Both the position numbers and the translations under genes were made by a program. This document shows positions 11,164-63,836 of a DNA stretch of 64,000 bases, in pieces. Source of the stretch: Coralliovum pocilloporae (GTDB lineage Bacteria > Pseudomonadota > Alphaproteobacteria > Rhizobiales > Cohaesibacteraceae); contig NZ_CP132542.1 of NCBI RefSeq assembly GCF_030845175.1, forward strand, positions 124,001 to 188,000, given 5' to 3'. Numbering within the stretch: position 1 is the first letter of the stretch; the number at the start of each line of letters is the position of its first letter. The notes under the pieces were generated by a model. The model ran no database searches, had not been told where the DNA came from, and was given only the letters and a program-made list of their open reading frames with translations.

Positions 11164-11847
11164 TCAGCGTCTAGACATCTTTGGAACATAGAGCTGGGAA
11201 TAGGCCCGACGGACGGCACTGGTTGCTTCTTCACTCCGCCGCTCGATATGACGCCTCATTGCATCAGCGGCCTGGTCCGGCGCACGTGTCTGGATCGATT
11301 CGACAATGGCACGATGATCGGTTGGTGTAACCGTTCTCCGATCTTCCATATCAATCCATCTTATATAACGAATGCGGGCGTTGATATTATCAAGCATCCT
11401 GACCAGTTCTTCATTGCCGGAAAGGCGCGCAAGCTTCAGATGGAAACACTCATCAATGCCCACCAGTTCCTTTGGCTCCAGATCGCCGGAATAATCCTTC
11501 TCCACACCATCCAGATAGGCTGACAGGTCAGCTATCGCTTCATCCGACGCCCGCTGACAGGCAAGACGTGCGGCTTCGCACTCAATCGCAGCCCTCACCT
11601 CATAGAGATCAAGGATTTCATCGGGATCGAGAGAACGACAGAAGAAGCCCTTACCGGTCTGGAATGTCAGAAACCCCTCTGCCACAAGCCGGTTCAACGC
11701 CTCACGGACCGGCGTACGACTGGCACCAAGCGTGCGCGCAAGAGCGCCCTCATTAATCCGCTCATCCGGTTTTATCTCGAACGACGCAGCCATCAGGCGC
11801 ACTTGCTCATAGATCCGGTCGACACTGCTCGGTTGTCTGGCTTCCAT
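11164..11847 (-). CDS. GntR-family regulator, FCD (FadR) subfamily
   Basis: A 227-residue regulator. The N-terminal winged helix-turn-helix (EGALARTLGASRTPVREALNRL, about residues 28-50) is typical GntR. The C-terminal all-helical FCD domain (about 95-215) shows metal/ligand-site residues in DECFHLKLARLSGN and TDHRAIVESI. FCD regulators usually sense organic acids or amino-acid-derived metabolites and repress nearby catabolic genes. It is divergent from the DadA-like oxidase (12116) and lies upstream of the peptide-type ABC operon, so either or both are likely targets. Confidence 0.9.
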   Translation of the reverse strand: MEARQPSSVDRIYEQVRLMAASFEIKPDERINEGALARTLGASRTPVREALNRLVAEGFLTFQTGKGFFCRSLDPDEILDLYEVRAAIECEAARLACQRASDEAIADLSAYLDGVEKDYSGDLEPKELVGIDECFHLKLARLSGNEELVRMLDNINARIRYIRWIDMEDRRTVTPTDHRAIVESIQTRAPDQAADAMRRHIERRSEEATSAVRRAYSQLYVPKMSRR

Positions 11848-46821: not shown

Positions 46822-47856
46822 TTAGTCGAGCTGCGGGGCGTAAAGCACGCCACCATGGCTCCAGAGGTTGTTGAGACCGCGCTCCAGTTTGTACGGGCTG
46901 TTTTCACCCAGATTGCGGTGGTAGATTTCGCCATAATTACCCATTGCGGCAATCATTTCTTTGGCCCAAGTGTCGCGCAATCCAAGACGCTCGCCCATAC
47001 CGGGCTCAGCACCCAGCAGACGTGCGATTTTCGGGTTCGGCGGGTTTGCGGCCATTTCTTCAACGTTTTCCGAGGTGATACCTTCTTCCTCGGCAATGAG
47101 CAGCGCGGCCAACATCCAGTTGGTGAAATCGACGAAGTCTTCATCACCCTGCCGCATTGCGGCCGAGATTGGCTCGTTCGACAACTGGTCATTCAGGATC
47201 ACATGCGCATCGGGGTTTTCAAGTTCCGTGGCGCGCAGAACGGCCAGGAACGGACCCCAAGCCACAAAGCTGTCGCACCGGTTGGCCAGATAAGCAGCCC
47301 GCAATTCGGACGCCTTTTCATAGCTGACCATGGTGTGTTCGACAGCAAGGCTTTGCAGATAATTCGCGGCGATGCGTTCGATGGTGGTTCCGGCCTCGAC
47401 ACAAATCGTACCGCCTTCCAGATCCTTGGCATCGGTGATCCCAAGATCGCCATGCGCCATGAACTGCGCACCGCCAAAAAAGTAAGGAATCGAGAACTGC
47501 AGACCCAGCTCGGTATCGCGGCCCATTGTCCAACCTGTCGCTTTGATGATCACGTCCACGTCACCAGATTGTAGCGCCGGAAAGCGCTGCGCCCAGCTGA
47601 GCGGAACAATCTGCGCCTTTTCCGGATCACCCAGCAGAGCCGTGGTCATTGCGCGGCAAAGGTCAATGTCGAGACCTTTCCACTCGTTCCGGTCGTTTAC
47701 CTCGACGAATCCGAAATAGGACCCGTTGTGGCCCGAGCACAGTAAGGTGCCACGTTCCTGGATTGCTTTTATTGTCGGACTTTCGGCCTTGGCAATACCG
47801 GGTAATACCAAGGCCCCAGCTACTGCCAATCCCAAGGCTAGATGTTTAACTAGCAT
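46822..47856 (-). CDS. aapJ: general L-amino-acid-binding periplasmic protein (AapJ type)
   Basis: A 344-residue substrate-binding protein with a Sec signal (hydrophobic residues 5-20, cleavage near AKA-ES). Mature blocks such as RGTLLCSGHNGSYFGFVE, WKGLDIDLCRAMTTALLGD and GTTIERIAANYLQS are typical of AapJ. First gene of the aapJQM operon, GGAG box before ATG 47856. Upstream lies a 12-base-arm palindrome at 47876-47911. The substrate is presumably the amino acid derivative degraded by the other island genes. Confidence 0.92.
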   Translation of the reverse strand: MLVKHLALGLAVAGALVLPGIAKAESPTIKAIQERGTLLCSGHNGSYFGFVEVNDRNEWKGLDIDLCRAMTTALLGDPEKAQIVPLSWAQRFPALQSGDVDVIIKATGWTMGRDTELGLQFSIPYFFGGAQFMAHGDLGITDAKDLEGGTICVEAGTTIERIAANYLQSLAVEHTMVSYEKASELRAAYLANRCDSFVAWGPFLAVLRATELENPDAHVILNDQLSNEPISAAMRQGDEDFVDFTNWMLAALLIAEEEGITSENVEEMAANPPNPKIARLLGAEPGMGERLGLRDTWAKEMIAAMGNYGEIYHRNLGENSPYKLERGLNNLWSHGGVLYAPQLD

Positions 47857-47875
47857 TTTTCTCGCTCCACTGTTG

Positions 47876-47911
47876 TTCTATATATCAATACATTAGTACT
47901 GATATATAGAA
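47876..47911. promoter_or_regulatory. perfect palindrome upstream of aapJ
   Basis: TTCTATATATCA (47876-47887) is perfectly mirrored by TGATATATAGAA (47900-47911) around a 12-base centre. It begins 19 bases upstream of the start codon. It shares GTTC, TATAT and TATTGA elements with motifs A and B, so the same regulator may bind, though the alignment needs a gap. Confidence 0.55.
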
Positions 47912-47964
47912 TGAATAACTTGTGTGAGCAAGTCAACAGTTTCGACTCAACAGACTGCGCGTTC

Positions 47965-48208
47965 CGGGGGTAGCGCGGACAAGGATTCCAATCTGACGCG
48001 GACACCCATTCCGATTTAGCGCGGACAGGATTCCGGGGCCTGCGGACAAGACCGCAGAGTTCCTTGTCGGGGTGCTGAGCAATCACGTGGCGAGTAGCCT
48101 TTCGCTCTTTTGAAGAAAGGGAAGGACCCAATGGCGAGATTGCCTATGAGGAAGATCAGAGAAGCTTTGAGGTTGCGTGCAAGCGGCCTGACGAACCGGG
48201 AGGCGGGT
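47965..48208 (+). mobile_element. IS21-family end fragment with truncated istA
   Basis: Three repeated elements of an IS21-type left end are present: TAGCGCGGACAAGGATTCC (47971-47989), TGACGCGGACACCCATTCC (47994-48012) and TAGCGCGGACAGGATTCC (48017-48034). An istA-like start at 48131 (MARLPMRKIREALRLRASGL) follows, but homology stops at about codon 25 (48208), where the frame diverges. The rest of istA, istB and the right end are absent. It marks the right edge of the island. Confidence 0.75.
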
Positions 48209-48439
48209 GACGCAACAATATGTTGCTTTGACCGCGTTGCGACTGTTAGAGCCATCGCAAATCTACATTCGAAACAAATGGCAGGTTTTGGGAAGATACG
48301 TTGCCAAATCGACGACTAGCAAAATGTCGGCTTTGAGCCGAGAGTGTAAGTAAAAAAAACCCTGCGTGACGTCTCAGTTGTTTCGTGGAAATTCATCTAC
48401 TCTGAGCTGCCTTGCGCATCCAACTTCACCTATTACATT
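48209..48439. other. unrecognised junk between IS21 fragment and HlyD fragment
   Basis: No gene, stable repeat or RNA is seen in this 231-base stretch. Short frames here lack ribosome sites. Confidence 0.4.
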
Positions 48440-48590
48440 GCAAGTCCCCTCTTGGCACGATGACCATGACAGCTTCAGCCGGGCTGATGACACCACCAAT
48501 GGTTTGGACAGCAAGATTGTTCACAAAGCCTGAGCGAGGGGCACGGATCTCAACCCGGGTCAGCTGATCTTCTGCAGTTTCCCGTGAAGG
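48440..48590 (-). pseudogene. HlyD-family (type I secretion adaptor) gene fragment
   Basis: A minus-strand frame of about 47 codons reads ETAEDQLTRVEIRAPRSGFV, then VISPAEAVMVIVP, matching the beta-barrel/lipoyl junction of periplasmic adaptors such as HlyD/PrtE. No start, no complete domain. It stops at a TGA near 48440 and the right end abuts the presumed last spacer/repeat of the CRISPR array. Foreign debris left at the island-CRISPR junction. Confidence 0.65.
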
Positions 48591-48609
48591 ATATTTCGAC
48601 CATTTTGGG

Positions 48610-48645
48610 GTTGCGGTTGGACCGTATTTTCTGATCTGCTACAGT
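48610..48645 (+). CRISPR. single type II-C CRISPR repeat (36 bp)
   Basis: GTTGCGGTTGGACCGTATTT (first 20 bases), then TCTGATCTGCTACAGT, is 36 bases long. The 15 bases CGTATTTTCTGATCT (48623-48637) are exactly complementary to AGATCAGAAAATACG in the tracrRNA (53800-53814), and the remaining 5' half pairs with the next tracrRNA bases with only two one-base bulges. The 3' end TGCTACAGT resembles the extended -10 that drives transcription from type II-C repeats. Only one copy was found; 48580-48609 (30 bases) could be its spacer. Confidence 0.8.
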
Positions 48646-48653
48646 AGATAATC

Positions 48654-48686
48654 GGTTAATTCCTTGAAATAAAAAGGGAATTGACC
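48654..48686. repeat. inverted repeat between cas2 and the CRISPR repeat
   Basis: GGTTAATTCC (48654-48663) pairs with GGAATTGACC (48677-48686), with one G-U, around a 13-base A-rich loop. It may end the cas transcript; there is no clear U-tract. Confidence 0.4.
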
Positions 48687-48717
48687 GCTTCTACTGGAGC
48701 TAAAATGAGACATTTCC

Positions 48718-49083
48718 TCAAAAAAGAGCCAATTGTTTGGGATTTTTTCGGCGTTTTTTGCGCGCCTGATCCGAGAATCGGACAATATTTTCATACTGCC
48801 TGTCGGTAAACTGGAAGATGTAGATATCGCCCCATTCCGGCAAGGCTTGCTCGATCTGGCGGACATAACTTTCAAACTGCTCCTTGCCGTTACAATAGCG
48901 CAGATAATTGGAAAGCTGACTCATTTCGAAGCCGATATCCAGCAGAAATTCGCGAAATTTTGTTGCGGCCTTGCGCTGTTTCTTTGTCTCGACCGGCAGG
49001 TCAAATGTCACCAGCATCCACATGATCTGATATCCGCTTAAATGAGTGGCACCATTATTCGCCTTGTTTTCAAATGCCGTCAT
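48718..49083 (-). CDS. cas2: CRISPR-associated endonuclease Cas2
   Basis: A 121-residue protein with an N-terminal extension of about 20 residues before the ferredoxin-like core. WMLVTFDLPVETKKQRKAATKFREFLLDIGF contains the conserved first-strand Asp (TFDLP); NYLRYCNGKEQFESYVRQIE and WGDIYIFQFTDRQYENI complete the core. It forms the Cas1-Cas2 spacer-integration complex. Its ATG overlaps the cas1 stop by four bases (ATGA). Confidence 0.95.
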   Translation of the reverse strand: MTAFENKANNGATHLSGYQIMWMLVTFDLPVETKKQRKAATKFREFLLDIGFEMSQLSNYLRYCNGKEQFESYVRQIEQALPEWGDIYIFQFTDRQYENIVRFSDQARKKRRKNPKQLALF

Positions 49084-50015
49084 GGTGCGTCGTCCTCCTC
49101 GACCAGCCTGCCAAGGCTTGACAGCTCCAGAGGGGATGGCAGAGCTGGCAATTCGAGAGTGGCTTTGCCTGTCTCAAAACTGGTAACAACAGAATGAACC
49201 AGTCGGGACACCTGGACAGAAAGAGGTGACAGTCCCGGCCCGCTTTCCAGATCAAACGTCGCGATACTGGTCAGGGCGTGCTTGGCCTCAGGTGTTACCT
49301 CATCAACACCGCCTGCCAGAAGGTTGAGGACAAGCTGGTCGACAAGAGGTCGATAGATTTCCATCAGGTCATCAGCCAATGCAAAGGTGTTGGCTCTATT
49401 GGAATGAAAAATGCCCATGGTCGGATGCAGGCCCGCCGCACAAACGGCCCGGGACACAATGGCACGCAAAACCGTATAACCATAGTTCAGCAGTGCATTG
49501 ACGCCGCCGGCATCCTGATCACGGGCAAAATCCGGACCAAACAACTGCTTCCAATATCGTCGTGCCGCCTGGGCTTCGATGTTGTCAGGATCACCGGACC
49601 GGACCTTGCGTGCCAGTGTCCAGAAGCCACCACCCTCCTTGCCATTGGCATGAAGGACTTTCCCCTGAAGTCGGATCTTCGCAACAATCACCTTCTGCCA
49701 GATTCTCTTCTGCAGAATTTTGGAAGCCGCAAGCTGGGCCCTCAACCGCGCTCCCTGAATATGATGCCCCTCAAGAGGCCAGACGACAGAGACCGGCGCG
49801 TGATTAGGCGCACATAAAACCACCGGAACATTTCGTTCAGCCAGTCGAACAAACACCTGATTGGACCACGTCACGCCATGGGCATGAACGATAAGTCCTC
49901 CTATATCGTCCAGTGCAATGCGACCAAGCTCACCATCCTCGCTGGAAATGACAAGAAAGCCGCGATAGACGGACAGATACAGGCCGTCGGTTGATATATC
50001 GACAATCCGATCCAT
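49080..50015 (-). CDS. cas1: CRISPR-associated endonuclease Cas1 (type II)
   Basis: A 311-residue integrase. The helical domain carries the catalytic Glu in DPDNIEAQAARRYWKQLFG and the His/Asp/Glu block in LHPTMGIFHSNRANTFALADDLMEIYRP. It works with Cas2 to insert new spacers. It is placed 54 bases after cas9 and coupled to cas2; the cas9 stop lies in a weak AACAAGA/TCTTGTT stem. Its active site looks intact, so the adaptation machinery may still work although the array is nearly gone. Confidence 0.95.
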   Translation of the reverse strand: MDRIVDISTDGLYLSVYRGFLVISSEDGELGRIALDDIGGLIVHAHGVTWSNQVFVRLAERNVPVVLCAPNHAPVSVVWPLEGHHIQGARLRAQLAASKILQKRIWQKVIVAKIRLQGKVLHANGKEGGGFWTLARKVRSGDPDNIEAQAARRYWKQLFGPDFARDQDAGGVNALLNYGYTVLRAIVSRAVCAAGLHPTMGIFHSNRANTFALADDLMEIYRPLVDQLVLNLLAGGVDEVTPEAKHALTSIATFDLESGPGLSPLSVQVSRLVHSVVTSFETGKATLELPALPSPLELSSLGRLVEEDDAP

Positions 50016-50069
50016 GATGGCATTATGCTATCATGGTTTGAATAAATGCAATTTAAACAAGAAAAAAGC

Positions 50070-53000
50070 TTATTTTATCTTGTTTTTCCGCGCTTCCCTG
50101 TCTTGCGGCCCTGGGTCAAACACACGACCGGCTTCGTCTATACGCACCTGACGGCATTGGATTTTTTTCAGGCCGGATGCACTTTTGCTCATATATTTGA
50201 AGGGATCCTGCTTATCCGCGTCACGGGATTTCAGACTACCCGCTTCCTTGTGATTGGCCAGGGCGATCTGCCCGCTTACGCGAAATTTCACCACCCGGGC
50301 GATGGTATAGCCATCATCGGGATGCTCATAGGCCACCATATCATTCTGCTGCAGACGCAAGACCCGGCGAGCCGTTGGATTGTCCCTGTGAAATGCCGAT
50401 TGCCAGTCTGACTGGTGGGCATCAAACATGGAAATCACTTCAGAATGCCATTTGCCGTCCAGTGTCTCCCAGACATCATAACGGTAATTGGCATCGCCCT
50501 TGTAGCCTTTATAGGCCCTGCCTTCCTTGTCACGAATCGGAATGACCTTGAGCGCCTCAGCGATCCGGACACGCCGGATTCCTCTGAACCTGGGATGCGT
50601 TTCGCGGAACTTTTGAAGTGCCTCCTGCAAGGCTTTCTTATCGGTGATGCCATCCAGCGCCGTAAACAGCTCAGCCCGCAAATCTTCATCCCGAATAGTG
50701 GGAAGGTCCTTCAGCTGCAGCCCGGAGAACGGCACCCGATGAACCGCGACCGGGCGGCCATCCGGGTCATGACCCAGCCCATAGGCCGTATCATTGTGCA
50801 GTTTGCCAGCGGTCTGCCCCTTGCCCTCGGCATAGCCCTTGCGAGACACAGTGCCATGATCCGGTTTGTGGCTGACGGTAATCCTGTTGACAGCCTCGCG
50901 AAGATCAGAGCGGAAAGTCTCCCAGGGCAGAATCTCGCCCACAGTCTTGTTGACGTAATTCTCCAGATCCAGACTGTCCATCCGCCCGGCCGCCTTGGAA
51001 ATACGGTTGAGCAGGCTGCGTGTGGTGACACCGACGACAGCCGCATCAATCGCATGGTGACGATGATCCTTGCGGTTCTTGGCCTGTGCCATCCCGCCGA
51101 GATTGCTGTCCGGCAGCAGGGAATTGAGCCCCCAGTTTCGCCGCAGCATCTCTGTCAGCCGCCCGGGCGATACCAGAACATGGTTGCGCCTTTTCAACTC
51201 ACCATGCTCGTCTGCTTCTTCATAGGGATACAGACATTCGAGATATTCCCGCGCCATGCGTGACAGATACTGAGTATCCGTCAATTGCCGAGCCAGGAAT
51301 CCGCCATCCTTTTCAACTTTCTCCATCGCATCGGCAGAAAACCGCCAGCGCTTGTTTTTCGGCAGGCGGGCAGCCCGAGCCAGAATCTCATCATAGCGAG
51401 ACTGCCATTCTGTCACGTCAACCGGAGCCCGATTGCCTTTCTGCCGGTTGGCGGATTTCAGGCACAGAATCTTGTTCGTCGGACTGTCATCCAGTGTCTG
51501 CGACCAGGGCAGGATGTGATCAACATCCACCTCACCGGAAAACAGCATCTTGATACCAATCCGTTTTCCTGAATAGATGCAGACTCGGTCTTCCGGCTTA
51601 TCCACGTTCAGCTCTTCCCAGAGTTTCAGCAGCAGCCGGTTATAGCCATTGTTCTGCTGGCTCAGCTTTTCAAGCTTTTTCCCGCGCGCCTCCGCAGCGC
51701 GGGTGTTTTTGGTAATCGTCTGCTTGACCTTCCTCTTCTGCTCATCAGAAAGCTGCAGGTCGCGAGCCAGTTCCACAGCCATAAAGCGCGGCTTGCCATG
51801 CACCCGGATCAAGGCATTTACCAAACGCTTGAGCTGATTGAGCCCGATGTGAACGGTCGGATTGGTGATCCGACCCTTGTAGATGTGATAAATATCGTCC
51901 GGATTACCGCTGCCCGGCGGAATATGCAGTGCCAGCACCTCCTGATACGGCGGCAGGAATGCCTCGCCCTCATCCTCAGCGCTGCGTTCGGAGTGTTTAT
52001 ACCCACAGTTCTGAGCAGCTATTGCCTCGGGAATGACAAAACCATCCGCAACCGTGTTCTTCAACTCATCAAGTATGGACGAAAGAGCCGTTTCTCCTAT
52101 ACGTCCATGGCCATCCGGCAGCGGGCAGTTGGCAATCGCTTCAGCCTGCTCCCCCGCTATTCCGTAACGCTCCTGCAGCCATTCAAACACACGGTCCGGG
52201 TCTTCTTCCTCTTTCAGAGTCTGGATAATCTGCCACTGCTCTTGACGGTCAAACCCTGCCCATTTCGGGCCAAAGCGAGTCTTGTCAGACAGGGCCGCAT
52301 AGACTTCATCTCCCTTCAGCTTCTGGCGATTTTCAGATTCCTTGTTGAACGAAAAATCCGGGGTCAGCTTCAGGGTCTTCCGCAGCGCCTTGAAGGTCAC
52401 CTCCTTTTTGCTGCGCAGATGGTGGATCAGGGCATCACGCTGATCAGGCGTCAGTTTTCGTTCCTGGAGGTCCGGCTGAACCAATGCCAGCTCATTGACC
52501 TCCTTATAGAGGCGAAATTCCTGAAACAGCGGGTGAGCTTTGGACAGGCGTTCTTCCAGCGGATTGTAAGCACACTTCCCCACCTGCGGCTTTTTCAATG
52601 GCCGCTGATAGAACATCACCCTGAACAGATAAGCACGGCGCTCTTCAGTCAGAAGGTCCGGATAATGCGACTGCTGCGCATCCCAGATCGCATGGAACTC
52701 AGCCTCAAGCAGCGATCGCTCAGGATAAAACGCGTAACCGGTCTCATCAAAGGCATCAGAGCCGGCACGGAGACGGACCACATCCCCCGCCTCACGTCGC
52801 ATCGACAGCCATTCTCCGTAAGTCCGCGCGCGCGTATCATGCATCCGGCCCTTTAGGTCAGCAATGCCCAGCGCGATCTTGCCCTGATCGTTCTCCTTGC
52901 GATCTGTCTTGCGGTTTGATTTGAAACCCCGCCGCTGTGACAGATGGAACAGAGCCCGACCGATATAAGCTGGCGGCAGAACCTCATCCAGAGCTTTGGC

Positions 53001-53366
53001 CCGCAGCGCGTAAGGGTTGGCACTGTCTTCACCGGTTTCCGCCTTGCGATCTCCGGTTTCCAGCAGAAGCGCCTTCTGGGCTATTTTATCCGCAGGCATC
53101 AGACCAAATTCAATCAGGGTCCGTAACGCCGCCTTACGTCGCCGCTTGTAGCGATCCCGCATCCGCGAAGCTGCCCGTCCCTCCCGCCGTGCAACCGCAA
53201 GAGAAGCATTCGACTTCGGCTCTCTCCCGTCTGAATAAATGCGCGTCCCGATATCAAGAATACGGTCCGGCTCTCCATTGGAATCCAACCCAAACACGCA
53301 CCAGCCAATTGAGTTGGTGCCGATGTCGAAAGAGAACAGACGATTCGTGAAAAAGAGGTTAGCCAT
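50070..53366 (-). CDS. cas9: type II-C Cas9 RNA-guided endonuclease
   Basis: A 1,098-residue effector, the compact size of II-C. RuvC-I SFDIGTNSIGW has Asp14; an Arg-rich bridge helix (RDRYKRRRKAALR, about 71-83) follows; RuvC-II FMAVELARDLQ has Glu532; HNH GEVDVDHILPWSQ has His617; RuvC-III HRHHAIDAAVVG has His771 and Asp774. All nuclease residues are intact. The C-terminal region (about 830-1098) is the WED/PAM-interacting part. No csn2 or cas4 is near, and order cas9-cas1-cas2 with tracrRNA upstream defines II-C. The cas9 frame shows no decay. Confidence 0.97.
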   Translation of the reverse strand: MANLFFTNRLFSFDIGTNSIGWCVFGLDSNGEPDRILDIGTRIYSDGREPKSNASLAVARREGRAASRMRDRYKRRRKAALRTLIEFGLMPADKIAQKALLLETGDRKAETGEDSANPYALRAKALDEVLPPAYIGRALFHLSQRRGFKSNRKTDRKENDQGKIALGIADLKGRMHDTRARTYGEWLSMRREAGDVVRLRAGSDAFDETGYAFYPERSLLEAEFHAIWDAQQSHYPDLLTEERRAYLFRVMFYQRPLKKPQVGKCAYNPLEERLSKAHPLFQEFRLYKEVNELALVQPDLQERKLTPDQRDALIHHLRSKKEVTFKALRKTLKLTPDFSFNKESENRQKLKGDEVYAALSDKTRFGPKWAGFDRQEQWQIIQTLKEEEDPDRVFEWLQERYGIAGEQAEAIANCPLPDGHGRIGETALSSILDELKNTVADGFVIPEAIAAQNCGYKHSERSAEDEGEAFLPPYQEVLALHIPPGSGNPDDIYHIYKGRITNPTVHIGLNQLKRLVNALIRVHGKPRFMAVELARDLQLSDEQKRKVKQTITKNTRAAEARGKKLEKLSQQNNGYNRLLLKLWEELNVDKPEDRVCIYSGKRIGIKMLFSGEVDVDHILPWSQTLDDSPTNKILCLKSANRQKGNRAPVDVTEWQSRYDEILARAARLPKNKRWRFSADAMEKVEKDGGFLARQLTDTQYLSRMAREYLECLYPYEEADEHGELKRRNHVLVSPGRLTEMLRRNWGLNSLLPDSNLGGMAQAKNRKDHRHHAIDAAVVGVTTRSLLNRISKAAGRMDSLDLENYVNKTVGEILPWETFRSDLREAVNRITVSHKPDHGTVSRKGYAEGKGQTAGKLHNDTAYGLGHDPDGRPVAVHRVPFSGLQLKDLPTIRDEDLRAELFTALDGITDKKALQEALQKFRETHPRFRGIRRVRIAEALKVIPIRDKEGRAYKGYKGDANYRYDVWETLDGKWHSEVISMFDAHQSDWQSAFHRDNPTARRVLRLQQNDMVAYEHPDDGYTIARVVKFRVSGQIALANHKEAGSLKSRDADKQDPFKYMSKSASGLKKIQCRQVRIDEAGRVFDPGPQDREARKNKIK

Positions 53367-53517
53367 ACAGAACCCACAACCTTTGACCGATAAGACGAAT
53401 ATAAACTCACCAAGCTGTATTCACAATATGATACAATAAAACAACGACTTAGCAATATTTATATAAATTACTGGTAAGGGACTATTTTTCTACACACATC
53501 TCTGCTATCTTAAACAA

Positions 53518-53560
53518 AGGCTCATGATGCCTAATTTCGAGCCTAGAACATCATGAGCCT
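53518..53560. repeat. inverted repeat upstream of cas9
   Basis: AGGCTCATGATG (53518-53529) is mirrored by CATCATGAGCCT (53549-53560) with a 19-base centre. It lies 152 bases before the cas9 start. Role unknown: a cas9 operator or an RNA hairpin. Confidence 0.5.
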
Positions 53561-53651
53561 CAGCAACAAATCACGGAACCATAGGCCGTGCAGTCGTAGG
53601 ACACTGGTCCGTTGCGGGAGGTGGTCCATGAGAAGATTATAGGCAATAATT

Positions 53652-53678
53652 TGGGCAGCGGCAATTATCTGCTGCCCA
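53652..53678. repeat. inverted repeat between cas9 and tracrRNA
   Basis: TGGGCAGC (53652-53659) pairs with GCTGCCCA (53671-53678) around 11 bases. It may be a terminator or sRNA stem. The rest of 53367-53790 holds no supported gene. Confidence 0.4.
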
Positions 53679-53796
53679 TTCTGCAGATTACTGGAATTTT
53701 TCTTGTCAAAATTTTTGCTTTTGCAAGACAAATTACTGGTAGTTGCGGCCAGGCAGACTTGACGTATGCTCTGGAATATATCAATCTGAGATTGAT

Positions 53797-53877
53797 TATA
53801 GATCAGAAAATACGCGTCTGGCCGTTAACAAGCTAAGACGGCACCAGATAAGGCCGCTCCTCCGGGGGCGGTTTTTC
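53797..53877 (+). ncRNA. tracrRNA of the type II-C system
   Basis: The anti-repeat AGATCAGAAAATACG (53800-53814) is exactly complementary to the repeat at 48623-48637. It continues with GTCTGG, CCGT and AAC pairing to the repeat 5' end (bulges at C53815 and one T). Then comes a stem GCCGT/ACGGC (53821-53825, 53838-53842), and a terminator CCGCTCC/GGGGCGG (53854-53860, 53865-53871) followed by TTTTTCTG. Transcribed rightward, opposite to cas9. The 5' end is inferred; TTGACG at 53759-53764 is a possible -35. Confidence 0.85.
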
Positions 53878-54169
53878 TGTTTGCATATGGTGTTGGACAC
53901 CACGCTGATCGCCCCGCTGGAAGCTGATCTGTTGTCTACCAGACGAGTGCCACTCGCCATCTGGTTGCTATCACGGATACTGGTGATATAGTACGGCCTC
54001 AGAAGGGGATGTGCTGCCTTGGGGGGGGTGCCAAGCCATCGCGGATAAACGCGATTTCCCCGATATGCCCCATAAGAGCAAGTATAAAAATCCCGACAAA
54101 CGGGAAAGAAGCGGCTCCATAGATAGATTGTATAATCCTCCGTTGCGGAACGGAGCCTTGGGGGCATTT
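53878..54169. other. intergenic region between tracrRNA and small hypothetical gene
   Basis: No gene. A hairpin ATCGCG/CGCGAT (54038-54055) and a run of eight G (54021-54028) occur. TATAAT at 54131-54136 is a likely -10 for the gene at 54170. Confidence 0.45.
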
Positions 54170-54427
54170 ATGCTTATCGATGATATTATGGAAATCCTGC
54201 AACATGCCCGGGCTGCAACGCCACAGGAACAGCTTGAGCGGTTGAACGCCAATATTGAACGGCATGACCTCCAGGCTCTGGCCGGTCTCATTCTGATGGA
54301 TCGCTTCAACACGCTTGACCCGGCCCTGCTGGCTGACGAACAAAAGCTGGAATACATTCGGGTCATGAGTGATATATTGCGGACACAGACAGCCTTTGCC
54401 CGAACACATGATACACACGCGCATTGA
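54170..54427 (+). CDS. small hypothetical protein
   Basis: An 85-residue, Leu-rich, helical protein starting MLIDDIMEILQHARAATPQE. Its ATG lies 33 bases past a TATAAT box, which supports this start over the longer frame from 54011. The last 13 residues (TAFARTHDTHAH) are His-rich. It precedes the next gene by nine bases. No family is recognised. Confidence 0.6.
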   Translation: MLIDDIMEILQHARAATPQEQLERLNANIERHDLQALAGLILMDRFNTLDPALLADEQKLEYIRVMSDILRTQTAFARTHDTHAH

Positions 54428-54436
54428 GGTATCGCG

Positions 54437-54904
54437 ATGAACCGTTTCAGTTCCCTCCCCGTTTCATGGCTGCAGTCGGGCCACGCTTCAGAGCGGCTCG
54501 GGCAGTTCTACGATGCCGTGATGAGTGCGGGATCCGTTCTGACCCAGGAACACAATGCGGTCTTTTCCGACCTTTCCATCTGTGCGATGGACGCCAGGCT
54601 TGGGCAATCCCCCACCATTCTTTTTGTTGGCAGCCAATCCAGTCAGCGCTCTGTCTTCGGCGATGACTGGGCAGACGACCCCAGTCATCGAGGCAGAACC
54701 ACTGATAACAGGCTGGAAGAGGACGCCAGTGCTGGCTATGTGCTTGCCCAGACAGGCAGTCCCGTCTATCAGATCGCGGAAACACGTGTACACGGAACTC
54801 ATATGACCTATGAACGGCTGATCCTGCCGATCAGGCTTGATCACCGGAAGCCGCCGAGCCTGCTTGCGTATATGGGTTATGTTCTGCACCGTAGCGATCA
54901 ATGA
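54437..54904 (+). CDS. PAS-like domain hypothetical protein
   Basis: A 155-residue cytoplasmic protein. The segment from about 60 to 155 (SPTILFVGSQSSQRSVFGDDW ... YERLILPIRL) has the strand-and-final-helix pattern of small alphaproteobacterial PAS-like proteins, whose C-termini often read YERLLLPL. Ligand and partner are unknown. GAGG precedes the ATG at 54437. It overlaps the next, convergent gene by 74 bases. Confidence 0.55.
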   Translation: MNRFSSLPVSWLQSGHASERLGQFYDAVMSAGSVLTQEHNAVFSDLSICAMDARLGQSPTILFVGSQSSQRSVFGDDWADDPSHRGRTTDNRLEEDASAGYVLAQTGSPVYQIAETRVHGTHMTYERLILPIRLDHRKPPSLLAYMGYVLHRSDQ

Positions 54905-55562
54905 TCTCGGCCAGATAATACATGTTGGCCTTGTCCATCCAGACAAGCCAGTCTTCCGATGAAATCCCCTCTGGTTCAAGTTCCCAGTCGGTTCCATGCG
55001 GCACAGCATGTGTATAGCCGACACGAGAGTGAAACCCCACGTGAACGCCCTTGGTCGCCATCAGGCCATAGAGGTAGTCACAATCAAAATTAATGAGCGC
55101 CATGAGATAGCCAAGCTGCGCGATCTGCACGCTCACCGAACCGCCTCTTATGGAGCGGTCAATCCAGTAGTCACCATGATAAACAACCCGCCCTGTTATC
55201 TGGTCTGCGGCGATAGCGTGACGTTTGCCTATCCGGCCGCCATAAAGGCGCGGTTGCTGCTCATTCCAGTATTCCGACAGTGTCTTTCGTCCCAGGCAGT
55301 CCAGGCGCGCGGCCTGCACGCTGACACACTTCCCTTCCCCATCAAACGCGCCAATCCAAAACCCGTTGTCAGATGTAAAATCAAAAAACTTGTTATCCGC
55401 CTGCTGTGTCACCCGCTTTTCCGGCATGCACGACACAATGCGCTTCATATCCGCAAAAGAGTCTGACTCAACCAATGTTACCCCAGCAGATTCAATCGCG
55501 CTGTTCAGCTTCCCGATCGCCTTGGTCACAACAAGGCGGTTCTGTCTGTTGTCTGTACCCAT
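54831..55562 (-). CDS. hypothetical protein
   Basis: A 243-residue soluble protein of unknown family, with GFWIGAFDGEGKCVSVQAARLD and DYWIDRSIRGGSVSVQIAQLG as possible motifs. The ATG at 55562 has GGAGGG five bases ahead; the longer frame upstream is unsupported. Its 3' end overlaps the preceding rightward gene. No function inferred. Confidence 0.6.
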   Translation of the reverse strand: MGTDNRQNRLVVTKAIGKLNSAIESAGVTLVESDSFADMKRIVSCMPEKRVTQQADNKFFDFTSDNGFWIGAFDGEGKCVSVQAARLDCLGRKTLSEYWNEQQPRLYGGRIGKRHAIAADQITGRVVYHGDYWIDRSIRGGSVSVQIAQLGYLMALINFDCDYLYGLMATKGVHVGFHSRVGYTHAVPHGTDWELEPEGISSEDWLVWMDKANMYYLAEIIDRYGAEHNPYTQAGSAASGDQA

Positions 55563-57925: not shown

Positions 57926-60900
57926 CTAGAACGGCACGTTGACACTCAGAGACCCGCCATAGGCCTCAAAGTCACGAACACCGATACCATCATAGAAGCC
58001 CTCTCCCGTAACTCTGATGTTATTGGTTGAGAACAAAACAGCCGCCCCGGCTTCAATTCGAGCCCGTACGGAATCTGAAGATGATGTCAAGGAAGCGGTC
58101 GTCGCTGTGTCATCGCGTAATTCGTTAAAGTCATAGATACCTGACAACGACATGAAGAGAGACATGATGTAATCATCTTCTCCCTGAATGTCATAGGACA
58201 CCCTGGGGCCGAACTCCAGACGACCAAGGTCAAAGTCCTGACTGGGGATCAAATTCCCCAGCGTATCGGTATAGGATTCCTGTTCTTCCCAGAAATAGGT
58301 GACCTTCAGGAATGGATTGACGTTCAACGGCCCCATATCAAAGTCGCCTGTCAGGCCGCCCTGAATCAGAACCCGCTGTGTATCGAAGTCATCCGAGAAC
58401 AACCCCAGAGCATTGACCTGATTGTAGGATTGCCCATAGGTCGCACGGCCATCCAGATAGAGATTGTCATGCAGTCGTACAACTGCATATGGCCCGACCA
58501 TCCAACCAATGCCATCGGCAGAGGTATTGGCCACAGTATTCTCTTCATCAGAAATATCGAGCTGCCCCATAAGCCCGATCAAGGCATCATCCCGGAACCG
58601 GTAATCAACACCGGCAAAGAAAATCCCGTTCTCGCTCTCGCTGCTGCCATTCTCAACCGCTGCATAAGTGCCCTTGGCCCAGAAGTCGAAACCGGACTGA
58701 ACCGCCCCACCCTGTTTTCCGTCAACCTGCCCCTCATCAAAGGCAAGCGTTGCAAAGGTCTCTTCCAGGTCGCGTGTTTCCTGCGAGAAGGCAGAATGTC
58801 TGCGAGCAGCGTCTTTCGCCTCCAGCTCATCAAAAGCCGAAAAGCGGTCAACGAGCTGGCTTGTCCCTTCTGGAGCGTTTTCACTCCGCTCCCCAAGAGA
58901 GGATATCTTGTTGACGAAGGCCCTGTAGCTGAACTCAAAACTGGCTGATTTGTTCTGTGAACTGATATCAAAGGCAAAACTGTTGAAATTGTTCTGGCGC
59001 CCGAAAGCTCCACCCTTGAGCCGGTCAACCAAGTCAGGTTGCTCTGAGACAATCCTGTCCGCTCTGTTGGTGACAAAAGACGCAATCACTTCCTGGGTTT
59101 TGGTGATATCTGCCGATGAATCGCGCGTATTGGTCAGAGAGAATGTGACATCAGTCACTCCTGCGGCTTGCGCTGTGACCATATAGGGTTCAAACGCACT
59201 TCCTCCGAGAAAGTTCGACACAACAGAGTTGGCTGTCATAATCGAGCTTGTCGCCTCACCATTGGCATCTGTGGTTACGGTCTCGGTATTGGTCCCTGTC
59301 GATGCAAATGTCAGCGAGGCTCCACTGGCAGGCGCTGTAAACGTGACCGCCTCGTTGGCAACACCATTGCCGCTGGCATCCGTCAATGTGGCCACCAGAC
59401 GGCTGCCAAAGGCTGTATTGATTTCGGTAATCTGCCCAGACCCGGAGGTTGCTGCCAGCGCTGCCGGAACGCCCAATGCCGCCCCGGAGGCCGTGATGTT
59501 ATACGGGTTCTCATCAGCATCACTGTTAGCGAAGTTAAACGCGAAGCTGAACGCCCCTGCAGCAGTCGGCGTATAGTTCACAACGAGCGTTGTTGTACCG
59601 CCACCCGGCGTTACGCTGACAGCGCCGAGGGTCATGCTATTCACGGTCACATTCGATGTGGACGTCACATTGCCACCCACAGTGGGAGGCGTAACACTGA
59701 GCGCAGACGTCCCGGTATTTGTGATTGTGTAGGTAACAGTCGACGCAGAGCCAGCCGCCGGTGTCGAGGTGAAGGTGTCCGTTCCACCATCGGCCACAGC
59801 GCCACCCTCAGAAGACGACACCTCTATCTCAGGTGTACCACTCGCATTGCCACTTGCAGTAATGTTGAACGGATTCTCATCAGCATCACCATTGGCAAAG
59901 TCAAACGCGAAGCTGAACGCCCCTGAATTGGTCGGCGTATAATTCACAACAAGTGTCGTGGTCCCACCACCAGGAGCGACACTTGTCGAACCGAGTGTCA
60001 GGCTGTTCACGACAACATTGGTTGTCGCGGAGACGTTGCTGCCAACGGTAGGCGCGGTCACAGAGAGAGCGGACGTGCCGGAATTGGTAATCGTGTAGGT
60101 GACTGTACCTGCCACACCGGCAACAGGGGTAGACGTGAAGGCATCCGTCCCACCATCTGCAACAGCACCACCCTCAGAAGACGAAACCTCTATCTCCGGA
60201 GCACCTGTCGCTATACCGCTGGCCGTGATGTTATACGGGTTCTCGTCACCATCACCATTGGCAAAATTAAACGCGAAGCTGAACGCGCCAGCAGCGGTTG
60301 GCGTGTAGTTCACAACAAGCGTTGTCGTACCGCCACCTGGCGCTACGCTGACAGCGCCGAGTGTCATGGCATTCACGGTCACATTCGATGTGGACGTTAC
60401 ATTGCCACCCACAGTGGGAGGCGTAACACTGAGCGCAGACGTCCCGGTATTCGTGATTGTGTAGGTCACAATCGCCGGGGAGCCAGCCGCAGGTGTCGAA
60501 GTGAAGGTGTCCGTTCCACCATCAGCGACAGCACCACCCTCAGAAGACGAAACCTCTATCTCTGGAGTACCTGTCGCGGTGCCGCTGGCTGTGATGTTGT
60601 ACGGATTCTCGTCACCATCACCATTGGCGAAATTGAAATCAAAACTGAATGCGCCAGCAGCCGTTGGCGTATAGTTCACAACAAGCGTTGTCGTGCCGCC
60701 ACCAGGAGCCACGCTGACAGCGCCGAGTGTCATGGCATTCACGGTCACATTGGATGTGGAGGTCACATTGCCCCCAACAGTCGGTGGCGTAACACTGAGC
60801 GCAGACGTCCCGGTATTCGTGATTGTGTAAGTCACAATCGCCGGGGAGCCCGCTGCAGGTGTCGAGGTGAAAGTATCCGTTCCACCATCAGCAACCGCAC

Positions 60901-63244
60901 CGCCCTCGGAAGACGATACTTCAATCTCAGGCGGGCCGACTGCCGTACCACTGGCTGTGATATTATACGGGTTCTCATCACCATCACCATTGGCGAAGTT
61001 GAACGCGAAGCTGAAAGCGCCTGCAGCAGTCGGGGTATAGTTCACAACGAGTGTTGTCGTCCCCCCTGCCGGAGCAACGCTCACGGCACCCAACGTCATG
61101 GCATTAACCGTCACATTCGACGTCGACGTCACATTGCCCCCAACAGTCGGTGGCGTGATGGACAAGGCGGACGTCCCGGTATTTGTGATTGTGTAGGTAA
61201 CGATTGCTGGAGAGCCAGAGACAGGTGACGACGTAAAAGTGTCTGTCCCACCATCCGCAACAGCACCACCCTCAGAAGACAAAACCGCAATCTCCGGAGT
61301 GCCCGTCGCAGTACCACTCGCTGTGATGTTGTACGGGTTCTCGTCACTATCACCATTGGCGAAGTTGAAATCGAAGCTGAACGCGCCTGCAACAGTCGGC
61401 GTATAATTCACAACGAGCGTGGTCGTTCCACCGCCGGGTGCAACACTCACGGCACCCAACGTCATACTATTCACTGTCACATTCGACGTTGATGTCACAT
61501 TGCCCCCAACAGTTGGAGGCGTAACACTGAGCGCAGACGTCCCTGTATTTGTGATTGTGTAGGTCACAATCGCCGGGGAACCTGCTGCAGGTGTCGAGGT
61601 GAAGGTATCTGTTCCACCATCGGCGACAGCACCACCACTTTCTGACGAGGAAACCGCAATCTCCGGGGTGCCCGTCGCAGTACCGCTTGCCGTGATATTG
61701 TACGGGTTCTCATCACTATCACCATTGGCGAAGTTAAACGCGAAGCTGAATGCCCCGGCAACGGTCGGCGTGTAGTTGACGACGAGTGTGGTCGTTCCTC
61801 CCGGGGCAACACTCACGGCACCCAACGTCATACTGTTCACCGTCACATTCGACGTCGACGTCACATTACCCCCAACAGTCGGAGGCGTAACAGACAGAGC
61901 AGATGCGCCCGTATTCGAAATCGTATAGGTCACAATCGCCGGGGAGCCAGCCGCCGGGGTTGATGTGAAGGTGTCCGTTCCACCATCCGCAACAGCACCA
62001 CCCTCAGAAGAGGAAACCGCAATCTCCGGCGGACCGACTGCCGTACCGCTGGCGGTGATATTGTAAGGGTTCTCGTCCGCATCACCATTGGCGAAGTTAA
62101 ACGCGAAGCTGAACGCCCCTGCAGCAGTCGGCGTATAATTGACGACAAGTGTTGTCGTGCCACCCGGGGCGACACTGACAGCACCCAACGTCATGGCATT
62201 AACAGTAACGTTTGACGTCGATGTCACATTGCTTCCCACAGTGGGAGGCGTAACAGACAGTGCAAACGTCCCGGTATTCTCAATTGTATAGGTTACAATT
62301 GCGGGGGAACCCGCAACGGGAGACGATGCAAAACTGTCCGTTCCCCCGTCCGCAACAGCACCGCCGCTTTCAGAGGACGACACGGCAATTTCAGGCGCAA
62401 CACCAGTACCGGATACCAGAATATCGTAAGGATTCTCATCTGAATCATCATTCGTGATGTCCAGCTCAAATGAGAAGGCACCCGTGGCTGTCGGCGTATA
62501 GGTCACATCAAAGGTCTGGGGTCCGCCACCCGATGCAATACTAAAACTCGTCGAGGAAATCGTCGGACTGCCCGTGATGTTCGACAGATTGCTCGCGACA
62601 ATATTGGTCACATTCAGCGTCGCTGAACCGGAATTGGTGACCGTGTAGGTTACCGTCTTGGCCGTACTGATGGGCTCATCACCCTGGGCATCGGTTCCAC
62701 CATCCAGAACAACACCACCGCTTTCGGAAGATGACACTTCAATCTCGGGAGCCAGGACACCAACCGCGCCCTGGCCGGTGCCTGTATTAAACGTGTAAGT
62801 AAAACTGAATGGCGTACCGCCATGGGTACCGGAAACCGTACATCCACCACTACAGTCGATCGTTGTACCATCACCATTGTTATCAATAGAGCTACCACCA
62901 TTCACCTGATAGACAAGATCGCGGGCATCGGCTGGCCCCTCTTGAATTTCAAAGGTGGTTGAACCTGTTCCATCAGCAGGCTGTATTAAAATAAAGTCGT
63001 TATTCTGCTGCGAAACAGGTAAGGAATTCGTGTCGGTACAATTGTCGGCCGTCAGATCAAGCCCGGCCTGAATAGGGAATGGTGTGACATCCAAAGCCGG
63101 GCACATCGTAAAGGATGCTTCCGCCTGATTTGGCATGGCCGTCCAGAACAGAACACTCAGCATTGACCCAAAGACAAGTTGAAAAACGGCAAGAGACCGA
63201 ATGGTCCATCGCCATCCTGCTGATCGATCAGATCCGATAATCAT
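57926..63244 (-). CDS. choice-of-anchor-D repeat autotransporter
   Basis: A 1,772-residue surface protein. It begins with an extended signal region (hydrophobic residues about 15-33), then a short domain. Nine tandem choice-of-anchor-D repeats of about 121 residues follow; eight are nearly identical, each starting PEI(A/E)VSSSE and ending ENPYNITASGTA. Next are a Big_1-like Ig domain (LVATLTDASGNGVANEAVTFTAP), a linker, and an autotransporter beta-barrel (about the last 260 residues, ending LSVNVPF with a terminal Phe). So the passenger is exported to the surface. The ATG at 63244 has GGGGTGG ahead. Role: adhesin or stalk; not proven. Confidence 0.85.
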   Translation of the reverse strand: MIIGSDRSAGWRWTIRSLAVFQLVFGSMLSVLFWTAMPNQAEASFTMCPALDVTPFPIQAGLDLTADNCTDTNSLPVSQQNNDFILIQPADGTGSTTFEIQEGPADARDLVYQVNGGSSIDNNGDGTTIDCSGGCTVSGTHGGTPFSFTYTFNTGTGQGAVGVLAPEIEVSSSESGGVVLDGGTDAQGDEPISTAKTVTYTVTNSGSATLNVTNIVASNLSNITGSPTISSTSFSIASGGGPQTFDVTYTPTATGAFSFELDITNDDSDENPYDILVSGTGVAPEIAVSSSESGGAVADGGTDSFASSPVAGSPAIVTYTIENTGTFALSVTPPTVGSNVTSTSNVTVNAMTLGAVSVAPGGTTTLVVNYTPTAAGAFSFAFNFANGDADENPYNITASGTAVGPPEIAVSSSEGGAVADGGTDTFTSTPAAGSPAIVTYTISNTGASALSVTPPTVGGNVTSTSNVTVNSMTLGAVSVAPGGTTTLVVNYTPTVAGAFSFAFNFANGDSDENPYNITASGTATGTPEIAVSSSESGGAVADGGTDTFTSTPAAGSPAIVTYTITNTGTSALSVTPPTVGGNVTSTSNVTVNSMTLGAVSVAPGGGTTTLVVNYTPTVAGAFSFDFNFANGDSDENPYNITASGTATGTPEIAVLSSEGGAVADGGTDTFTSSPVSGSPAIVTYTITNTGTSALSITPPTVGGNVTSTSNVTVNAMTLGAVSVAPAGGTTTLVVNYTPTAAGAFSFAFNFANGDGDENPYNITASGTAVGPPEIEVSSSEGGAVADGGTDTFTSTPAAGSPAIVTYTITNTGTSALSVTPPTVGGNVTSTSNVTVNAMTLGAVSVAPGGGTTTLVVNYTPTAAGAFSFDFNFANGDGDENPYNITASGTATGTPEIEVSSSEGGAVADGGTDTFTSTPAAGSPAIVTYTITNTGTSALSVTPPTVGGNVTSTSNVTVNAMTLGAVSVAPGGGTTTLVVNYTPTAAGAFSFAFNFANGDGDENPYNITASGIATGAPEIEVSSSEGGAVADGGTDAFTSTPVAGVAGTVTYTITNSGTSALSVTAPTVGSNVSATTNVVVNSLTLGSTSVAPGGGTTTLVVNYTPTNSGAFSFAFDFANGDADENPFNITASGNASGTPEIEVSSSEGGAVADGGTDTFTSTPAAGSASTVTYTITNTGTSALSVTPPTVGGNVTSTSNVTVNSMTLGAVSVTPGGGTTTLVVNYTPTAAGAFSFAFNFANSDADENPYNITASGAALGVPAALAATSGSGQITEINTAFGSRLVATLTDASGNGVANEAVTFTAPASGASLTFASTGTNTETVTTDANGEATSSIMTANSVVSNFLGGSAFEPYMVTAQAAGVTDVTFSLTNTRDSSADITKTQEVIASFVTNRADRIVSEQPDLVDRLKGGAFGRQNNFNSFAFDISSQNKSASFEFSYRAFVNKISSLGERSENAPEGTSQLVDRFSAFDELEAKDAARRHSAFSQETRDLEETFATLAFDEGQVDGKQGGAVQSGFDFWAKGTYAAVENGSSESENGIFFAGVDYRFRDDALIGLMGQLDISDEENTVANTSADGIGWMVGPYAVVRLHDNLYLDGRATYGQSYNQVNALGLFSDDFDTQRVLIQGGLTGDFDMGPLNVNPFLKVTYFWEEQESYTDTLGNLIPSQDFDLGRLEFGPRVSYDIQGEDDYIMSLFMSLSGIYDFNELRDDTATTASLTSSSDSVRARIEAGAAVLFSTNNIRVTGEGFYDGIGVRDFEAYGGSLSVNVPF
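59466..62780. repeat. tandem DNA repeats of about 363 bp in the autotransporter gene
   Basis: Nine in-frame repeats, eight highly alike, spaced about 363 bases (for example, related starts near 59822, 60190, 60552 and 60921). They encode the choice-of-anchor-D units. Such near-identity invites recombination, so the copy number may vary between strains and short-read assemblies may collapse it. Confidence 0.85.
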
Positions 63245-63836
63245 GTATGCCACCCCTGTGGGTGCAATCGTGTCGTCGCACCTCATAAGTTTGCTTCTGC
63301 CGATCGTTCTAAGAACCCTTTCAAATCAACCGAAACGAGAAACAACTAATACGAGCGAAGCAATTGACGCAACCTAATTGATTACCACCTTGTTAATTTT
63401 TTCAGGGAGTCCATCGAAAAAGTGGCATTTGTGCAACACAACTCTAAGATTCATTTTCGCCAGAGAGAACTCATAGCTCAAAATACCCGTTATAGACAGA
63501 TTGCAAGCTTTTCCAGATAAGAATCGCCTAACGATTAAAAATCACCACAAAAATCAATCAAACAAAAATCAATCAAAAATTGAAATTTTTCTATAAAAAA
63601 CAATAAGAGAAACTGATCTCCTGCCATCATTGAGCTCACCTAAAAAGCGATCACTCAAATCATACGACACCTTTAAATCGATTTTTTAGGTTGCACACCA
63701 TAATTATACCGTGCAAAAATTACCCTCAATTGGTGAAAAATTACATTCATCACCCAGGAATTGACGATGTATAGATGCTGGTTTCCAGATATTCCGCCAG
63801 CTGTGTAAGCCTGACTTCAGAGCATCGGAGATTTTA
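63245..63836. other. AT-rich intergenic region
   Basis: No supported gene. It contains a perfect tandem repeat of CAAAAATCAATCAAA (63548-63562, 63563-63577) and then an AAAATT/AAATTTT palindrome (about 63575-63590). Promoters for both flanking genes should lie here. Confidence 0.5.

Follow-up and report, generated by a model that had tools for sequence, protein, structure and literature searches.

A type II-C CRISPR-Cas system of Coralliovum pocilloporae keeps a single repeat beside its cas genes, and the evidence gathered here makes it likely that this system, its cas-side array truncated, works in trans with an array elsewhere on the chromosome (the trans array), and that its lone repeats are still acquisition sites. 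The immune system looks rewired, not dead, because a spacer-bearing array and a second one-repeat site exist far from the cas genes. The window, by which we mean the whole stretch of 64,000 nucleotides that was analysed, corresponds to C1:124001-188000 in a genome of one contig of 3,918,007 bases, the sole member of its genus among the genomes compared. Features of the locus are listed in Table 1.

Table 1. Features of the CRISPR-Cas locus and its flanks, in window positions.
Feature	Position	Strand	Basis or remark
IS21 family fragment, start of istA (strand by eye)	47954..48211	+	89.5% to IS21 of a Ruegeria plasmid
HlyD (membrane-fusion protein) fragment	48441..48577	-	DNA homology of 48444-48577 to an intact paralogue in the genome
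Junction zone, end of HlyD DNA homology	48564..48578	+	13/15 identity to the repeat 3' tail
Probable residual spacer, 31 nt	48579..48609	+	at least 22 nt outside the longest HlyD alignment
Single CRISPR repeat, 36 bp	48610..48645	+	crRNA orientation (guide 5', repeat 3')
Segment copied into the trans units	48610..48774	-	cas2 tail, leader and one repeat
Acquisition leader with inverted repeat (arms 48653-48663 and 48676-48687, by eye)	48646..48690	-	adjoins the repeat
cas2, 121 aa	48718..49083	-	TIGR01573, PF09827
cas1, 311 aa	49080..50015	-	TIGR03639, PF01867
cas9, 1098 aa	50070..53366	-	type II model match, open frame
tracrRNA, predicted: anti-repeat, then terminator-like stem (53850-53875)	53801..53875	+	sequence

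The repeat, GTTGCGGTTGGACCGTATTTTCTGATCTGCTACAGT, is a perfect copy at 48610-48645, and the window contains no second copy even with 8 mismatches allowed, in line with the sequence-only reading that a sole 36-bp repeat adjoins cas2. That reading also took cas9, cas1 and cas2 to be intact, which open frames and family models confirm for all three genes and alignment confirms additionally for Cas9. Both cas9 and cas1 match type II models, while cas2 matches general cas2 models, and the models cover residues 12-1080 of cas9, 3-276 of cas1 and 21-111 of cas2. Six Cas9 residues that we take to be those of the active site (D14, E532, H617, N640, H771 and D774) are invariant in all six aligned Cas9 proteins, five of which are homologues. 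The gene set is that of type II-C, comprising cas9, cas1 and cas2 with neither csn2 nor cas4 (three upstream neighbours tested); none of these three neighbours upstream of cas9 had a Pfam match at an E-value of 0.001, and an Rfam search of 47000-55500 returned nothing up to an E-value of 1. A second cas9 locus serving the trans array is ruled out by the single cas9 match in the genome. Three relatives at 75-79% in Cas9 keep the repeat and leader next to their cas genes; the repeats in this position number 35 in G011 and 14 in G014, and in G006 a contig end interrupts the array.

The predicted tracrRNA lies upstream of cas9 and divergent to it, its anti-repeat is predicted to pair with the CRISPR repeat, and closely similar sequences are found upstream of cas9 in G011, G014 and G006. 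Since the strand of the tracrRNA determines that of the crRNA, the repeat is oriented forward, its guide would lie on its left, and the acquisition end would be the one facing cas2. Oriented in this way by the anti-repeat, the array runs opposite to the cas genes; in the trans array, the degenerate repeat is at the far end and the leader at the cas2-derived end. As judged from sequence, this orientation agrees with the known type II-C arrangement, in which arrays are read against the cas genes (PMC3936727) with the acquisition end beside cas2 (PMC3936727, PMC12080349 and PMC13187072, in their available portions); the last two sources, in the same portions, describe spacers joining at the last repeat, promoters within repeats and ageing of the first repeat. 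The system thus shares with the Neisseria/Campylobacter kind of type II-C its three cas genes, tracrRNA and 36-bp repeats, but differs in that its cas-side array has one repeat and its other spacers are in trans.

Seven exact copies of the repeat occur in the genome, at three places: the window, the trans array and a second lone repeat at C1:2702079-2702114. The whole-genome search thereby bore out what the sequence-only reading had offered as an alternative, an array elsewhere, which was found at C1:2803788-2804152 and consists of 6 repeats and 5 spacers of 29-30 nt, the far repeat being degenerate with 5 changes. On a circular contig, the distance between it and the cas locus would come to about 1.29 Mb by arithmetic. 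Its repeat fits the tracrRNA, whereas the cas locus itself has one repeat. The DNA helicase gene of Roseobacter phage RDJL Phi 1 contains a match to spacer 2 of the trans array, with 28 of 29 bases identical (E = 7e-4 in the phage collection), and the same gene of RDJL Phi 2 agrees with this spacer at 25 of 29. The other four spacers gave chance-level matches only in the phage and plasmid collections, which counts against our best reading. No exact match in viral contigs was obtained with 19-20-nt seeds from all five trans spacers, from the probable residual spacer of the window or from 30 nt adjoining the second lone repeat; a plasmid search with the trans array gave two matches, at an E-value of 1 or worse, and the 34-spacer array of G011 had no phage match at an E-value of 0.1, so no PAM was derived. 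Since a tracrRNA is present, Cas9 need not be short of guides, and with five spacers available the earlier idea that a Cas9 without spacers acts through an alternative RNA is not needed, though it may still apply. The single cas9-cas1-cas2-tracrRNA locus would then work in trans, with crRNAs supplied by the 5-spacer chromosomal array, whose expression and loading into Cas9 we infer.

The cas-side array looks truncated, and the likely site of the truncation can be placed from its left flank. The HlyD fragment is identical to the intact paralogue at 107 of 134 positions (80%), and this DNA homology ends at 48577; at the protein level the best alignment, which is with the paralogue, extends as far back as 48587 and the following ones to 48584-48578, the paralogue alignment having one matching residue only past 48578. 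The 13/15 match to the repeat 3' tail at the end of this homology is reached by 2 of the 127,970 15-mers of the window, the repeat itself included, and it ends 31 nt before the repeat, which is one spacer length (29-31 nt in the trans array of this genome and in the relatives' arrays compared). The junction therefore probably falls within a repeat tail, to judge by these letters, and the simplest account would be a rearrangement between an HlyD gene and a repeat at a short similarity, leaving about one spacer; the tail match, lying inside the HlyD homology, could be a coincidence. No similar tail match is found to the left of the second lone repeat, and none at spacer distance. The 31 nt left of the window repeat are unique in the genome at up to 3 mismatches and have phage matches at chance level only. 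They probably are a residual spacer, as had been proposed, although the proposed borders of 48580-48609 are better drawn one nucleotide wider. The earlier reading had also seen both the HlyD and the IS21 fragments left of the repeat, and both are real, but its suggestion that the array was deleted at the IS21 junction did not hold: the junction is with the HlyD fragment, and the IS21 fragment, rejected as the breakpoint, ends about 350 bp to the left.

We thus favour a course of events in which a rearrangement joined the HlyD fragment to a repeat tail and truncated the cas-side array, which would have left one spacer-length segment, one perfect repeat and an intact leader. What the sequence-only reading called an array worn down to a single repeat holds up as far as truncation goes; wear is another matter, as the repeat is exact, the leader is conserved and a second lone repeat exists. 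It appears unlikely that the window locus is a dead remnant and the trans array an old leftover. Truncated HlyD and IS21 fragments do adjoin the repeat, and decay of this kind does occur in the family, as a relic repeat in G003, a genome with no cas9 match, shows; but cas9, cas1, cas2 and the tracrRNA are intact here, the repeat is identical at three places, and the leader is more conserved than the dead cas2 tail that adjoins it. Collapse of a longer array into a single repeat during assembly is hardly credible, given that the trans array with its identical repeats was assembled with five spacers, that the HlyD junction flanks the window repeat, and that this genome has two lone units with different flanks, further lone units being present in G694 and G513.

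The preferred reading, in which the truncated locus remains in service, further holds that the lone repeat with its leader would be a substrate of Cas1-Cas2, and so a dormant acquisition site and not a relic, because the leader, the repeat, cas1 and cas2 are all intact. In E. coli, according to the available part of PMC10011333, cas1, cas2 and a single repeat suffice for integration, and leader elements are essential. The leader is common to all three repeat places of the genome and contains an inverted repeat, which we evaluated across alphaproteobacterial type II-C loci. Named genomes yielded 548 loci with a related Cas9, of which the best 80 were used. An array lies within 2.6 kb 3' of cas9 in 63 of these, the flank is too short in 13, and four show no array; of the four, L083 and L133 have N runs at the site and were set aside, L093 by eye has no cas1 or cas2 after cas9, and one, also by eye, has a single spacer. 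Seven of the 63 were left out for uncertain repeat borders and five more for register (L078, L082, L088, L103 and L128), and the remaining 51, together with five rows from the window genome (three), G011 and G014, make up the alignment A2. Two side observations on this sample concern the region behind cas9: L093, from a Parvularculaceae MAG, has two degenerate repeats directly after cas9 (11207-11400), and in L058 and L059 the array begins at the expected end of cas1, about 1 kb after cas9, so that cas2 may be missing or displaced.

An inverted repeat beside the acquisition repeat was found at p 0.01 against the leader's own shuffles in 46 of the 56 leaders of A2, the other ten falling short of this level. 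Its sequence differs between alphaproteobacterial type II-C leaders, with several pair types at most paired positions, and its axis is nearly fixed. Because this axis shifts by 1-3 nt between alignment rows and RNAalifold on A2 returned no consensus structure, the inverted repeat was tested by script with shuffles. A covariance model built from the 56 leaders and their repeats, the three of the window genome included, scored the three full leader-repeat units of this genome at 79-82 bits, compared with 25-43 bits for its other repeats. No account of this element turned up in the parts of the open-access literature that were available: the hairpins of PMC12080349 are on the other side of the array, and the leader motifs of PMC8092290 belong to other II-C species, as far as the accessible text of each goes. 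The leader-repeat hairpins of II-A and Cas13 systems likewise place a structured leader next to the repeat, but there the leader pairs with the repeat (PMC13187072, accessible text), whereas here it pairs with itself. Work on insertion-site choice in type II-C systems gains a concrete target in this covarying inverted repeat.

Lone leader-repeat units are rare but recurrent. The model matched in 19 of the 397 genomes of the order, with 25 full-length units (at least 74 nt), three of them in the window genome, and in 9 of 385 genomes of the class, the 8 besides the window genome having one unit each; such wide scans can miss weaker units, because stricter filters were used and 11-12 candidates were scored per genome. 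Of the total of 33 units, the lone count excludes that of G006, which a contig end truncates, and five of the other 32 have no second repeat within 9 mismatches in the stretch inspected: two in the window genome and one each in G694, G513 and G274. The unit of G274 (L090) was rejected as lone, since by eye it has a degenerate second repeat 30-31 nt on, missed by the ungapped search; no further leader-repeat unit was found in that genome. Four of 32 resolvable units are therefore lone, two of them outside the window genome. The lone unit of G694 lies beside cas2, with cas1 and cas2 frames present, and about 60-115 nt beyond its repeat (L182) a long near-perfect inverted repeat followed by T's is visible by eye, similar to terminators reported upstream of type II-C arrays in the available text of PMC12080349. 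The 420 nt upstream of the lone unit of G513 showed no cas2 tail; upstream of the same unit (L185, around 1440-1545), a short unit CGCGGCTTGGTGAAAA occurs in tandem. To the left of the relic repeat of G003 (L046:8599-8634), at a distance of about 30 nt, a second and more degenerate repeat is visible by eye.

A comparison with the cas1-cas2-leader-repeat segment of the window as the query bears on where the distant units came from. Homology extends over 141 columns at C1:2803683-2803823 and over 166 columns at C1:2701951-2702114 and then stops, so that each trans unit carries the last 11-19 codons of cas2 with the stop, the leader and one repeat. The two trans units differ from each other at 22 of 60 positions of the dead cas2 tail, at 5 of 55 leader positions and at 0 of 36 repeat positions (Fisher p = 1.6e-6 for the tail against leader and repeat), and we infer from this lower divergence that the leader-repeat part has been kept by selection or gene conversion. 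A genome of another family, G116, is similar in make-up: one of its units follows the cas2 frame, and the other, a filled copy, comes with a decayed version of that cas2 tail (166 columns; the score was reached by 0 of 500 shuffles). These observations raise the possibility, which we put forward tentatively and as somewhat less probable than its opposite, that alphaproteobacterial trans arrays are born without spacers, as copies of about 140-170 bp, placed at a new chromosomal site and consisting of cas2 tail, leader and one repeat, and are later filled in trans by Cas1-Cas2. The lone units of G694, beside cas2, and G513, away from it, could then be separate stages, and the window genome might conceivably show three stages together, with the window unit as a reset parent, C1:2702079 as an unfilled seed and C1:2803788 as a filled one. 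Against this, a lone repeat could equally be an array stripped of its spacers, and the genomes compared include no parent-daughter pair of strains. The second arrays of G007 and G008 have no recognisable cas2 tail, and as copies of such a tail they are unsupported by shuffles, 164 and 350 of 500 of which reached the score; copying of the cas2 tail is therefore not the sole route. An origin by copying would add to the preferred reading of a system working in trans, and both can hold together.

A further alternative, which we regard as improbable, is that the lone repeat acts through an RNA, either with a built-in promoter from which a leader hairpin RNA, antisense to the end of cas2, is transcribed, or as an extraneous crRNA, read from upstream, that occupies Cas9 in the manner of phage RNA anti-CRISPR repeats. 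By eye, the repeat holds TTGGAC-17-TACAGT with a TG before the second hexamer, promoters are known in type II-C repeats (PMC12080349 and PMC13187072, available portions), and the leader inverted repeat is conserved. A consensus promoter scan of 48200-48800 gave no site at its threshold, however, and no prophage genes were recognised by eye around the second lone repeat, whose neighbours look chromosomal (LysR regulators and a TPR protein); moreover, ordinary arrays carry the same leader, so that no special function need be assumed for the lone form. The RNA anti-CRISPRs (Racr) are solitary repeat units too, although the window repeat has the 13/15 tail match 31 nt upstream of it; as described in the accessible text of PMC10651486, they reside in viruses and plasmids away from cas genes, whereas the window unit abuts cas2 and has a leader. 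Neither it nor the C1:2702079 unit, the latter judged by eye, is borne by a virus, prophage or plasmid at a distance from cas genes.

Distant, shorter II-C arrays and lone repeats in viruses are thus known already, and the lone repeats described here differ in their place. According to the part of PMC12814883 available, distance from the cas genes goes with shorter II-C arrays, the medians being 5 for far and 12 for near arrays when all repeats are pooled. The window genome departs from other systems in which distant arrays share one cas locus, since here the near array is empty and the distant one has the spacers, and since an unfilled leader-repeat unit is present as well. Our literature search, within the texts accessible to it, returned no description of spacer-less arrays beside cas genes or of arrays born by duplication. 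If lone leader-repeat units are live acquisition sites, a single strain would allow the birth of an array to be followed, and counting arrays would require searches that start from the leader, like the one used here. Array finders that require two repeats would not list an unfilled leader-repeat unit. To our knowledge, how genomes gain second or third arrays per cas locus is little understood. Elsewhere in the window, the reverse strand of 57926-63286 encodes a 1786-aa protein that, by eye, consists mostly of near-identical repeats of about 100 aa and has an autotransporter-like end.
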